From Actinomycetota bacterium (lineage in GTDB: Bacteria > Actinomycetota > Acidimicrobiia > IMCC26256 > JAENVU01): a stretch of DNA of 64,000 nucleotides. Below the pieces are notes generated by a model, which saw nothing but the letters and a program-made list of their open reading frames with translations, had not been told where the DNA came from and did not search any database. Position numbers and translations under genes: made by a program. Of this stretch, positions 15,224-27,763 are shown one piece after another; within the stretch, counting starts at the first letter, position 1; every line of letters begins with the position of its first letter. The stretch lies in the NCBI GenBank assembly GCA_016870395.1, contig VGBT01000006.1, forward strand, positions 1 to 64,000, given 5' to 3'.

Positions 15224-15763
15224 CTAGAACCAGCGGGCTGCGATCCGTCCCATCACGAGGCCGAGGGCTGCGCCGGCGAGGACGTCGGAGGCGTGGTGCA
15301 TCCGGACGTAGACCCGGCTCGATGCGACGACTGCCGCGAGGCCGTACCAGGCCGGGCCGCCCGGGCCGGTACGAGCCAGGATGACTGCGGCCGTGAACGC
15401 GGCCGTTGCGTGTCCCGACGGGAACGACGAGGTGATGGGCCGGCGCATCCCGAACGGCAGCGGTCCCTCGGCCACCTCGGGCTCGGGCCGGACACGGCGG
15501 AACAGCGCCTTGACGCCCCCGTTCGTGATCGCGGACTCGGCGCCCATCGCGGCGGCAAACTTGAGCGCGAAGCGCAGGTCGGCGCGCCCCAACGCGCGCA
15601 CGCCACCCACGGCGAACCACAGCAGGCTGTGGTCGGCGGCACTCGACAGCGTGTACATCACCCGGTCGAGCGCGGTGCCGCGGCACCGGTCGAGGGCACG
15701 GTCGACCACGCGGTCGAACGCGGCGACCGCGGGAAGCTCCTCGGGACTCGGCAGCGCGGGCAT
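15224..15763 (-). CDS. PAP2-family membrane phosphatase
   Basis: A 179-residue phosphatidic-acid phosphatase type 2 protein. The three catalytic blocks are all present: KALFRRVRP, the PSGH block (TSSFPSGHATAAF) and SRVYVRMHHASDVLAG. Membrane helices lie around FAVGGVRALG, ATAAFTAAVILA and the C-terminus DVLAGAALGLVMG. Family members remove phosphate from phosphatidate, undecaprenyl pyrophosphate or similar lipids. The neighbouring wax synthase makes release of diacylglycerol for triacylglycerol synthesis an attractive reading, but wall-lipid recycling is equally possible. The ATG at 15763 lies 11 bases after the upstream gene stop. Confidence 0.85.
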   Translation of the reverse strand: MPALPSPEELPAVAAFDRVVDRALDRCRGTALDRVMYTLSSAADHSLLWFAVGGVRALGRADLRFALKFAAAMGAESAITNGGVKALFRRVRPEPEVAEGPLPFGMRRPITSSFPSGHATAAFTAAVILARTGPGGPAWYGLAAVVASSRVYVRMHHASDVLAGAALGLVMGRIAARWF

Positions 15764-24985: not shown

Positions 24986-25942
24986 ATGAAGATCTGGGTC
25001 TTTGCGGAGTCCGAGGGCGACAACGCCACGACGGCCACCCTCGAGCTGCTGACCAAGGCGCGCGAGATCGGCTCGGTCGAGTGCGTGTACGTGGGGGCGA
25101 ACGTCGACGCGATCGCACCGCAGCTCGGCGAGCACGGCGCGGCCAAGGTGTTCGCCCTCGACGCGGGCGACGGGCTCCCCGGTGTGATCGGCGGCGCGGC
25201 GATCGCGGGCCTGGTCGAGGCGGAGCAGCCCGACCTGATCCTGTTCGCACAGAGCGGTGACGGTCGTGACGCGATGGCCGTCGCGTCGGCGAAGCTCGAC
25301 CGCACGGTGCTCACCAACGGCGTGGGCCTCGCGGCCGACGGCGACACGGTCACCGTCAACGCCGCGATCTTCGGCGGCAACACGCTCGTCGACACGGTGT
25401 TCGACGGTCCCAAGCCGTACCTCGCCGGCATCCGCCCGAAGTCGTTCGTGGCCGAGCCGGGTGGCGCAGGCGCGGGCGAGGTGGTGCGGGTCGACAGCGT
25501 CGACGCCGGCCGCGCGGGCGAGGCGAAGGTGCTGGAGCGCCACGTCGAGGAGCGCGAGGGACCGAAGCTCGAGGAGGCGTCGGTGGTGGTCTCCGGTGGC
25601 CGGGGCATCGGCGCCGAGGAGAACTACAAGCCGCTGGTGGAGGACCTCGCCAACATGCTCGGCGGTGCGTCGGGCGCGTCACGTGCGATCGTTGATGCCG
25701 GCTGGGTGCCGTACTCGAAGCAGGTGGGCCAGACCGGCAAGACCGTGAAGCCGAAGGTGTACCTCGCGCTCGGGATCTCCGGTGCCACCCAGCACATGGT
25801 GGGCATGAAGGGCTCCGACAACATCATCGCGGTCAACAAGGACCCGGAGGCCCCGATCTTCTCGGTGGCCGACCTCGGGATCGTGGGCGACGTGCACAAG
25901 GTGGTGCCCGCGCTGATCGAGGCGCTGAAGAACCGGGGCTGA
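24986..25942 (+). CDS. etfA: Electron transfer flavoprotein alpha subunit
   Basis: A 318-residue large ETF subunit carrying most of the FAD site. The N-terminal domain starts MKIWVFAESEGDNATTATLE. The FAD-binding C-terminal domain contains VVSGGRGIGAEENYKPLVED, YSKQVGQTGKTVKPKVYLALGIS, GATQHMVGMKGSDNIIAVNKD and VADLGIVGDVHKVVP, the standard alpha-subunit sequence. Begins one base after the etfB stop. Confidence 0.96.
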   Translation: MKIWVFAESEGDNATTATLELLTKAREIGSVECVYVGANVDAIAPQLGEHGAAKVFALDAGDGLPGVIGGAAIAGLVEAEQPDLILFAQSGDGRDAMAVASAKLDRTVLTNGVGLAADGDTVTVNAAIFGGNTLVDTVFDGPKPYLAGIRPKSFVAEPGGAGAGEVVRVDSVDAGRAGEAKVLERHVEEREGPKLEEASVVVSGGRGIGAEENYKPLVEDLANMLGGASGASRAIVDAGWVPYSKQVGQTGKTVKPKVYLALGISGATQHMVGMKGSDNIIAVNKDPEAPIFSVADLGIVGDVHKVVPALIEALKNRG

Positions 25943-25960
25943 CGGCCTAGGGTGGTCCTC

Positions 25961-26191
25961 GTGACCACCGTGACGTTCGACCCGCCCGAGCGCGACGCGG
26001 AGCCGCCGGCGCCGGCGCGCCACTGGATCCGCTGGGTCGTGCTCGCCGTGGTCGCGATCAGCATCGTGAAGATCGTGCTGCTCGTCTGGTGGTTCCGACG
26101 CGGCGGCGCCAAGGACATGGTGCGCGAGCTCGCGGAGGAAGGCGCCGTGATCCTCGCGGACAAGGCCGTCGAGGAGCTCTTCGGAACCTAG
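25961..26191 (+). CDS. Small single-pass membrane protein
   Basis: A 76-residue protein with one membrane helix at about residues 22-44 (WVVLAVVAISIVKIVLLVWWF). A Pro/Ala-rich N-tail precedes it and an amphipathic acidic C-tail follows (KDMVRELAEEGAVILADKAVEELF). GTG at 25961 is preferred over GTG at 25952 for spacing from an AGGG. It follows etfA by 18 bases and could be cotranscribed. Function unknown. Its stop is directly followed by the first copy of the CGGTTCCGCGGAACCG palindrome. Confidence 0.65.
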   Translation: MTTVTFDPPERDAEPPAPARHWIRWVVLAVVAISIVKIVLLVWWFRRGGAKDMVRELAEEGAVILADKAVEELFGT

Positions 26192-26212
26192 GGCGGTTCC
26201 GCGGAACCGCCC
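26191..26212. repeat. Palindrome copy 1 (CGGTTCCGCGGAACCG core)
   Basis: A perfect 22-base palindrome with the 16-base core extended by GGG/CCC arms, starting in the last base of the preceding stop codon. There is no unpaired loop and no T-run. Could fold as a hairpin terminator or be a protein-binding dyad; the same core recurs at 26557 and 27359. Confidence 0.85.
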
Positions 26213-26257
26213 TGCTCGTGTGGGTACGCTCGGTCACGTCCACGAGCGGAGCGCGCG

Positions 26258-26548
26258 ATGAGCGTCACGGTGATCGTCACGTTCCATGCGGCCGAGGGCA
26301 AAGCGGACGCGCTTCGGGCGCTGCTCGAGCACGGACGTGACGTGAGCAGGCGGGCCGAGGGCTGCGAGGACTTCGAGATCCACCAGCGCGAGGACGACCC
26401 GAACGAGTGCCTCTTCGTCGAGCGCTGGACCTCGATCGAGGCTCACCATGCCAACATGCAGACGAACATCGTGGAGACGGGCCACCTGGCCAAGATCCTC
26501 CCGCTCCTGAGCCGACCGATCGAGAGCGGCGCCTACCGCACCGTGTAG
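26258..26548 (+). CDS. ABM-domain monooxygenase-like protein
   Basis: A 96-residue dimeric alpha-beta barrel protein of the antibiotic-biosynthesis-monooxygenase/YgiN type. The fold shows as MSVTVIVTFHAAEGKADALRA, the EGCEDFEIHQREDDPNE middle strands, and FVERWTSIEAHHANMQT with the conserved Trp and His. Members oxidise quinols or heme, or act as small-molecule-binding dimers; nothing here fixes the substrate. ATG at 26258. Ends 8 bases before the second palindrome copy. Confidence 0.8.
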   Translation: MSVTVIVTFHAAEGKADALRALLEHGRDVSRRAEGCEDFEIHQREDDPNECLFVERWTSIEAHHANMQTNIVETGHLAKILPLLSRPIESGAYRTV

Positions 26549-26556
26549 GTCGGGCG

Positions 26557-26572
26557 CGGTTCCGCGGAACCG
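26557..26572. repeat. Palindrome copy 2 (CGGTTCCGCGGAACCG)
   Basis: An exact copy of the 16-base palindrome, 8 bases after the ABM gene stop and between two convergent genes. Location between 3' ends fits a bidirectional terminator. Confidence 0.85.
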
Positions 26573-26647
26573 TCGAGCGTGGAGCCGTTCTTCCGACCCG
26601 ACCTCCTCATCGATCGTCCCGGTCTTGCCCCGGTTTCTGCCCTGCCC

Positions 26648-26992
26648 CTAGCGGGCGGAGGAACCTGTCGTCGAGTCTCCGCGAACGACCGTCTCCGGCT
26701 GCTGATCGAGAGTCGGCAACGCGAGCGAGCGAGTCCTGGTTGATCGTTCCCGGAGCTCGGCAAGCCGCTGGTAGGCCGCCGATGTTCCGAACGCGATGAG
26801 CGCGTCCATGTCGGGGAACTCGATGATGATGACCCGATCTGGTTCCCATCCCCCTGCGATGGGAACGACTTCGTAGGAGCGTGAGACGTAGCGGCCACCG
26901 TATCCATACACGACGTCGGGCACTTGCTCGATGTAGCGGTCGTACAACTCTTGGTCGACGATCTCGATCTCCACGAGCAGAAGGACGGCCAC
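26648..26992 (-). CDS. DUF1330-like dimeric alpha-beta barrel protein
   Basis: A 114-residue protein from GTG 26992: VAVLLLVEIEIVDQELYDRY, then YGGRYVSRSYEVVPIAGGWEPDRVIIIEFPDMDALIAF. That is the ferredoxin-like half-barrel of DUF1330 proteins (usually about 95 residues). The C-tail from about residue 85 is Arg/Thr-rich and extra to the family. Role unknown. Divergent from the small gene at 27065 and convergent with the ABM gene. Confidence 0.72.
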   Translation of the reverse strand: MAVLLLVEIEIVDQELYDRYIEQVPDVVYGYGGRYVSRSYEVVPIAGGWEPDRVIIIEFPDMDALIAFGTSAAYQRLAELRERSTRTRSLALPTLDQQPETVVRGDSTTGSSAR

Positions 26993-27064
26993 GACACAAG
27001 AGTACGGACAACAGCCACACATTCGCAGCAGCGAATTTGCCCGACTCAAGAAGGGACGATCACG

Positions 27065-27349
27065 GTGACCGCGGTCGAGATCTGGAGTGGTGGGATCGTC
27101 ATCCATTACGCGGACGACCTCCCCGAGTTCTTCGCTGCCCGGGAACCGATCGCGATGCGGCCGCACTGGGGGGTCTTCGACGACGTCGGAACCCACTACG
27201 TGCCTCACGGCGGTGGGGGAAGCGGCGGGGATCATCTCAGCCTCGGGACGTGGTTGGTCGCGACCACGCCCCCCGAGGATGCGACGTGCCTCTATCTGCG
27301 AGGGCCGGGCATGAGCGACGACGACCGGCTGGTGGTCGTGCTCACCTGA
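27065..27349 (+). CDS. Hypothetical protein
   Basis: A 94-residue soluble protein from GTG 27065, with AAGGGA 10 bases upstream. Readable segments are VEIWSGGIVIHYADDLPEFF and a glycine-rich HYVPHGGGGSGGDH, then strands ending LYLRGPGMSDDDRLVVVLT. The strand-rich pattern suggests a small beta-sandwich. No family recognised. Ends 9 bases before the third palindrome. Confidence 0.55.
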   Translation: MTAVEIWSGGIVIHYADDLPEFFAAREPIAMRPHWGVFDDVGTHYVPHGGGGSGGDHLSLGTWLVATTPPEDATCLYLRGPGMSDDDRLVVVLT

Positions 27350-27358
27350 TCCCGCAGG

Positions 27359-27374
27359 CGGTTCCGCGGAACCG
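27359..27374. repeat. Palindrome copy 3 (CGGTTCCGCGGAACCG)
   Basis: An exact 16-base copy sitting in the 27-base gap between two convergent stop codons. With copies 1 and 2 it makes three in 1.2 kb and none recognised elsewhere in the window. Confidence 0.85.
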
Positions 27375-27376
27375 GT

Positions 27377-27763
27377 TCAGCCGGAGGTGTAGCGCGCGTC
27401 GGTGATCTCGAGGCCGTCGGTGGACGGCGCGACGCGGATGGTGAGCTCGGCGCCGGTGGCGTCCTTGCCCCAGGTGCAGAGCACGTCGGTCTCGTCGGCC
27501 GCGCAGCCCTTCGGGACGAGGCCGTCGCTCGCGTAGCCGGGGATCGCGAACATGCGCGCCGCGGCCACCGGCGTAGCGATCTCGAGCAAGCCTGCCTCGT
27601 CGCCCGCCCGCCACGCGTCGAAGCCCGCGTTCGCGATGCCTTCCGCGGTCTGTGCGGCGCGGGTGATGGTGGTGGTCGACGGGGTGGGATCGGTGTCACG
27701 TCCGGCGCACGCCGCGGCTGCGACCAGCACGAGCACTGCGGCAGCCAGACGAGTCGAACGCAT
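27377..27763 (-). CDS. Putative lipoprotein
   Basis: A 128-residue protein with a lipoprotein signal (MRSTRLAAAVLVLVAAAACAG; lipobox AAAC, Cys19), a Thr/Pro-rich linker (DTDPTPSTTTITRA), and a small globular domain with two cysteines (KGCAADETDVLCTWGKD) that may form a disulfide. The tail reads VAPSTDGLEITDARYTSG. No family recognised; a surface binding or sensing protein is a guess. Divergent from the APH-like kinase at 27801 with 37 bases between starts. Confidence 0.75.
   Translation of the reverse strand: MRSTRLAAAVLVLVAAAACAGRDTDPTPSTTTITRAAQTAEGIANAGFDAWRAGDEAGLLEIATPVAAARMFAIPGYASDGLVPKGCAADETDVLCTWGKDATGAELTIRVAPSTDGLEITDARYTSG

Follow-up and report, generated by a model that had tools for sequence, protein, structure and literature searches.

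A dispersed 16-bp palindrome in an acidimicrobial genome and its candidate partner, a clade of DUF222-HNH nucleases

Results

Three palindromes among the small genes of the locus

The window, by which we mean the whole 64,000-nucleotide stretch that was analysed, belongs to an actinobacterial genome of the class Acidimicrobiia (G000; 2.98 Mb in 97 contigs, 99% complete), and gene calling gave it a coding fraction of 0.917. A gene for the electron-transfer flavoprotein alpha subunit (ETF-alpha; 24986–25942, + strand; named from the sequence and not by a family search) is followed by genes for a 79-aa predicted membrane protein with no Pfam family (25952–26191, +), an antibiotic biosynthesis monooxygenase (ABM) domain protein (26258–26548, +; PF03992, E=2e-14), a DUF1330 protein (26648–26992, −; PF07045, E=4.5e-20) and a 94-aa protein called without a Pfam family (27065–27349, +). 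On the right, the region is bounded by a called lipoprotein-like gene, again with no Pfam family (27377–27736, −), which is also found in same-genus relatives. Three solitary, exact copies of the 16-bp palindrome CGGTTCCGCGGAACCG, to which no strand is assigned, lie among these genes. Copy 1 (26194–26209) follows the stop codon of the membrane protein gene by 2 bp and is part of a perfect 24-bp palindrome (26190–26213, AGGGCGGTTCCGCGGAACCGCCCT). Copy 2 (26557–26572) lies 8 bp past the stop codon of the ABM gene, and copy 3 (27359–27374) lies 9 bp past that of the 94-aa protein gene and 2 bp from the stop codon of the opposite-strand lipoprotein-like gene, so that copies 2 and 3 each have convergent genes on either side. 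The ABM gene is thereby enclosed by copies 1 and 2, and the DUF1330 and 94-aa protein genes by copies 2 and 3.

A sequence-only reading of this DNA had reported the palindrome after three consecutive gene 3' ends, 0–10 bases past a stop codon and twice between convergent genes, with no further copy in 64 kb. All of this was borne out by the gene calls and by a search of the window, in which the nearest other match has 2 mismatches; of the three start positions it gave, 26557 and 27359 were exact and the first, 26197, was 3 bases off. A perfect related palindrome, CGGTGCCGCGGCACCG, with 2 mismatches to the 16-mer, is present at 15673–15688 and is unrepeated in the window.

The DNA of the ETF-alpha gene is 80–86% identical in six genomes of the same family, and in same-family genomes ETF-alpha is followed almost directly by a lipoprotein or phosphotransferase gene. 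Compared with these genomes, the window has extra small genes at 25943–27376 (those for the 79-aa membrane protein, the ABM and DUF1330 proteins and the 94-aa protein). The window genome is approximately 1.3 kb longer here than a same-genus relative, and the extra DNA holds the ABM, DUF1330 and 94-aa protein genes. Palindromes 1 and 3 stand at the two ends of this trio, so that two of the window copies flank small genes not present in relatives, copy 3 being at the edge of the missing segment. The exact junctions of the block are unreadable because the identity of the flanking DNA is too low.

Copies across the genome and the question of termination

The 16-mer occurs in 11 exact copies on 7 contigs of the window genome, compared with 0.004–0.005 expected, and the reversed 16-mer, used as a control, has 0 copies in the whole genome. 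For the core 12-mer GTTCCGCGGAAC, the count is likewise 11, and every one lies within the full 16-mer, which makes the set homogeneous and unlike a degenerate set of operators. Five further copies carry one mismatch, and three of these are less than 800 bp from an exact copy. All 11 exact copies are intergenic and so do not show the abundant random distribution, gene interiors included, that the sequence-only reading had named as counting against its proposals. Seven of the 11 lie no more than 10 bp past a stop codon, compared with 8% of random intergenic positions (p=5e-6); this bias is strong in the window genome and weak in the other genomes examined. On contig C8, a HIT-like gene between two palindromes (L162, 5042–5488) looks frameshifted near its start.

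Intrinsic terminators without a T-run had been suggested from the sequence, and the position of these copies is what would be expected if they were such terminators or 3'-end hairpins, reused by chance or local duplication. A hairpin with a CGCG loop can be drawn, with a 10-bp stem at copy 1, and in some Clostridia the exact 16-mer does form part of ordinary T-run terminators. No T-run follows any of the three window copies, however, and a terminator scan called none of the three sites; the RNA folds at copies 2 and 3 were no better than those of shuffled DNA, and the loop sequence is conserved exactly. Other copies are found upstream of tRNAs and genes or in frame inside genes. Since this explanation also leaves the nuclease pairing and type matching described below unaccounted for, we consider it improbable.

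Patchy distribution in other genomes

Within the class Acidimicrobiia, 10 of 296 genomes carry the 16-mer, and it appears in bursts of 4, 4, 6, 7 and 11 copies per genome; neither of two genomes of the same genus as the window genome has any. A public scan found it in Frankia, Modestobacter, Pseudonocardia, Arthrobacter and other actinobacteria. Some matches in other phyla are plain T-run terminators; in two Clostridia MAGs (L089 and L128), for example, the 16-mer forms the top of a common terminator hairpin with a T-run behind it, and is unconnected with the nuclease pairing. Outside the window genome, some copies precede genes or tRNAs, and others form in-frame parts of coding sequences (G049 L176 and G023 L169). 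Five palindromes (L160, L171, L174, L178 and L017) have a tRNA gene (Thr, Leu, Cys, Arg and Leu) no more than 45 bp away; four of them are upstream of the tRNA gene and one is downstream. Two local clusters were also seen: a 31-bp tandem array of four palindromes 13 bp past a stop codon (G049; L175, 1899–2007), and nine occurrences of GTTCCGCGGAAC within 1.4 kb in Pseudonocardia nigra (L129, 1864–3300), mostly of the CG outer type. An Rfam search gave no match, and a literature search for the palindrome string found no relevant paper.

The palindrome accompanies one clade of DUF222-HNH genes

The called genes around the copies were recurrently those of DUF222 (PF02720) HNH endonucleases, which adjoin the palindrome in the window genome, in G006, G023, G048 and G049, in Modestobacter, in Parafrankia and in others. 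Of five partner proteins scanned, all matched PF02720 above cut-off and four matched HNH (E<=0.001), the fifth being a decayed copy; the HNH residues are invariant in an alignment of DUF222-HNH proteins. We also listed the DUF222 genes of 14 genomes by a protein-profile search that was blind to the palindrome. In this list, two G007 genes and one G004 gene have a related palindrome, CGTTCCGCGGAACG, just upstream, and the G004 gene has it at the 3' end too. A maximum-likelihood tree of 55 DUF222-HNH proteins placed the 11 palindrome-bearing genes in a single clade (support 94/98), and none of the 44 other genes has the palindrome.

Thirty further DUF222-HNH loci, gathered by protein similarity alone, added palindrome types that share the centre TCCGCGGA: GCTTCCGCGGAAGC in G333, GGCTCCGCGGAGCC in G347 and GTTTCCGCGGAAAC in G471. 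When a larger, quickly built tree was used, a palindrome with this centre flanked or lay inside 16 of 23 clade members and none of 65 others, several of the clade loci having first been found via the palindrome and many of the genomes being drafts. Among loci found without using the palindrome, the figures were 8 of 15 inside the clade and 0 of 65 outside (p=2e-7, ignoring shared ancestry). One of the 16, that of G085, has a single internal copy that may be a chance palindrome; the remaining seven of the 23 have none. G045 has six copies, yet its draft assembly contains no clade member. The window genome's own member, on contig C29, is decayed, with a stop codon and missing parts, and two palindromes 30 bp apart (L165, 6725 and 6755) lie directly upstream of it. 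A clade gene may have its palindrome shortly before its start, within a linker inside the gene, at its 3' end, or at more than one of these places. In four members (L169 6401, L037 4254, L255 2054 and L265 2085), an in-frame palindrome occupies a similar internal place, a variable linker after the N-domain. Collections of plasmids and of phages each gave one distant protein relative of the clade, which argues that the clade is mainly chromosomal. A defence-system library gave no match. No paper linking DUF222 with a palindrome was found in the literature searched.

A partner of this kind bears on the idea that these are classical REP elements moved by a RAYT (Y1 HUH) transposase, with which they share being short, extragenic, palindromic, dispersed and paired with a gene. 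The sequence-only reading had raised a mobile REP-like unit restricted to this spot and had proposed a check for a REP-associated transposase. Y1_Tnp (PF01797) was absent from the 10 carrier genomes but was matched in 5 of 14 control genomes, and the flanks of all copies contain no GTAG or CGTC tag; the perfect 16 bp also differ from the imperfect palindromes of 20–40 bp, with a GTAG or CGTC tag at one end, that characterize REPs (PMC3733652). Classical REP elements are therefore a most improbable explanation. Of the three ideas raised from the sequence, the REP-like unit nevertheless came closest, in that there is a dispersed palindrome with a cognate nuclease gene; what did not hold were the restriction to one spot, given the 11 copies on 7 contigs, and the REP transposase as partner.

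The type of palindrome matches the local nuclease gene

Perfect palindromes of each type, defined by their outer letters, were counted in 16 genomes. In nine of them, the dispersed copies mainly share their outer letters (GG, CG, GC or GGC types) with the copy at the genome's own nuclease gene. Of the ten GC-type copies in G333, three are at its gene, and the types of the second search pattern are absent from this genome; in G347, two of five GGC-type copies are at the gene, and in G004, which lacks the GG type, two of five CG-type copies are. For G007, the CG type was counted eight times, with three of these at its genes, and the GG type three times. The window genome, G006, G023, G048 and G049 have the GG type only, the same as at their own genes. 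Both GT-type copies of G471 are within its gene, and in five genomes in which the nuclease lacks every listed palindrome type, there are 0–1 copies of any. Together with the Noc/ParB-like reading of DNA predicted below, this match in spelling suggests that nuclease and repeat form a pair in actinobacteria that has so far gone undescribed.

These counts bear on the view that the palindrome is a passive hitchhiker, that is, a frequent scar of repair or template switching or an edge of acquired DNA, with which nuclease genes merely came along. The patchy distribution, the short tandem arrays such as the 31-bp units of G049 and the copies at the edges of the window's extra gene block would all fit such an origin. 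It is hard to reconcile with four palindrome types that each match the local nuclease gene and with an association confined to one clade, and we regard it as a poor candidate.

Homology ends at the palindrome

G007 has two paralogues, located apart on the chromosome, whose homology (80% identity) extends precisely between the stop codon and the outer border of the palindrome upstream; outside these limits the two loci show no relationship. This is the single paralogous pair in which both unit ends are visible. In a comparison of Geodermatophilaceae URHA0031 with Modestobacter altitudinis, 90% identity over 7.2 kb ends at the palindrome.

A predicted Noc/ParB-like domain and LexA-like boxes

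AlphaFold2, applied to four clade proteins, gave a model that was good for the N-domain (residues 25–150, pLDDT mostly 70–95), poor for the rest and weak overall (mean pLDDT 57.8). When the PDB was searched with Foldseek, the nine best matches were all Noc or ParB; the top match, 6y93, is the DNA-binding domain of Noc in complex with the 16-bp Noc site (probability 1.00, target TM 0.68, E 0.3, all E-values being 0.3 or worse). With hhalign, an N-domain profile matched the HTH of a six-sequence ParB profile at E=0.0024, compared with 0.42 for the reversed control; the full DUF222 profile gave E=0.0077 against the same profile, and E=0.023 had been obtained with an earlier four-sequence ParB profile. 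Pfam found no family besides DUF222 in the N-domain alone. The motif LSYSKVRA aligns over the ParB stretch that holds residues 201 and 204, which are DNA contacts (PMC7383237), and palindrome-bearing members retain SYSKVRA; in clade members that lack a palindrome, it has mostly been lost or changed. From these comparisons, the N-domain is predicted to fold like the DNA-binding domain of Noc/ParB, which reads 16-bp palindromes. The suggestion of a nucleoid-protein site, made from the sequence, was thus indirectly close, inasmuch as the predicted reader has a fold of this type. The HNH part resembles the HNH domains of group II intron maturases and IscB.

A LexA/SOS-box-like GAACN4GTTC is present upstream of 48 of 86 DUF222-HNH genes (loci L180–L279 and others; 0.04 expected per upstream stretch searched), both in and outside the palindrome clade; within the clade, it precedes 10 of 21 genes. 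These boxes agree with the membership of the 13E12 genes of Mycobacterium tuberculosis in the LexA regulon (PMC5005354).

A reading head of this kind could also serve a binding site without mobility, at which a DUF222-HNH or other Noc/ParB-type protein regulates its own gene or organises DNA, the dispersed copies being kept by selection. The palindrome does lie 50–140 bp upstream of the gene start, site and gene co-vary, and the predicted ParB/Noc-like head would suit such a role. The absence of copies from same-genus genomes and their arrival in bursts argue against it, as do copies inside the gene or past its 3' end with no common promoter position, homology edges that coincide with the palindrome, and a core never met apart from the exact 16-mer, which is less variation than operator sets usually show. 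We therefore think this explanation unlikely.

Discussion

The explanation that we favor, with a probability of roughly 0.6, is that the window palindromes are solitary recognition sites of a palindrome-reading subfamily of DUF222-HNH nucleases and have spread in the fashion of REPs. DNA damage would lead to production of the nuclease through SOS induction. Its Noc/ParB-like N-terminal domain probably reads the two-fold-symmetric 16-bp site as a dimer, and the C-terminal HNH domain probably makes its cut there or close by. Break-and-copy repair after cutting would then carry palindromes to new places, occasionally together with the gene or adjacent DNA, with copies persisting mostly at spots where they do little harm, such as just past stop codons. 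The nuclease gene carries its own site and in some cases may move as a unit edged by the palindrome. Several points count against this explanation: one end of the G007 unit falls exactly at the stop codon, and the unit is known from a single pair; seven clade members have no palindrome, and G045 has copies without a clade member in its draft; some of the clade loci came to light through the palindrome itself; the fold match has weak E-values and a weak overall model behind it; and the stop-codon bias is mainly a feature of the window genome. As the nuclease gene of the window genome is decayed, the window copies are probably relics.

Gene and palindrome would act like a REP/RAYT pair made of unrelated parts. 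The resemblance to REP/REPIN and RAYT lies in short, dispersed palindromes, mostly extragenic and sometimes clustered (PMC3116915, PMC3733652), and in an enzyme gene, here DUF222-HNH, that is flanked by its own repeat type and with which the repeat type co-varies. The enzyme, however, belongs to DUF222-HNH instead of the Y1/HUH transposases; the palindrome, perfect and 14–16 bp long, is built on the centre TCCGCGGA and has no GTAG/CGTC tag; and the carriers here are actinobacteria, a group whose name is absent from PMC3733652. Because REP/RAYT-like behaviour is accompanied by the failure of the defining REP/RAYT features, we place the pair in the known kind that joins a dispersed palindrome to a cognate enzyme, the enzyme here being an unrelated one. 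Some copies are in frame (G049 L176 and G023 L169), as in rickettsial palindromic elements (RPEs) and other in-frame palindromic repeats, but the element described here is much shorter than an RPE and comes with a putative partner enzyme. RPEs are counted with the CGTC repeats, a group that lacks a transposase of its own (PMC3733652).

The REP13E12 or 13E12 repeats of M. tuberculosis belong to the same family (DUF222, PF02720) and are likewise mobile-element-like (PMC5005354, PMC10589994); 13E12 is under LexA control, and LexA-like boxes lie upstream of the genes studied here. No dispersed cognate palindrome for 13E12 was found described in the papers searched. The window genome's gene belongs to a clade that makes up a single branch of DUF222, and the palindrome is missing from most genes of that family.

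The Noc site is TATTTCCCGGGAAATA, and TTCC/GGAA is common to it and the palindrome. The predicted fold of the reading domain and the 16-bp two-fold-symmetric site resemble those of ParB/parS and Noc/NBS (PMC7383237, PDB 6y93). Unlike ParB/Noc, the DUF222 proteins have an HNH nuclease domain where ParB has its CTPase part, and the sites are patchy and dispersed instead of clustered near the origin. ParB/parS as such was set aside: the 16-mer differs from canonical ParB-bound parS (GTTTCACGTGAAAC-type), and each genome, G000 included, has its own ParB gene.

One might go further and envisage, tentatively and at somewhat less than even odds, a distinct class of mobile system: an SOS-inducible HNH nuclease whose Noc/ParB-type head reads a 16-bp palindrome that is also the unit boundary, with bare copies, and sometimes neighbour genes, scattered through actinobacterial chromosomes, and with enzyme and palindrome co-evolving into separate specificities. 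DUF222-HNH genes are present in several copies in many actinobacterial genomes, the 13E12 family of M. tuberculosis included; a defined cognate DNA site for a clade makes the question of their target and purpose directly testable. If the favored explanation is true, DUF222-HNH would be a second, unrelated enzyme among the few that are tied to short palindromic repeats, which bears on how palindromic repeats without a RAYT, such as the CGTC repeats (PMC3733652), spread.
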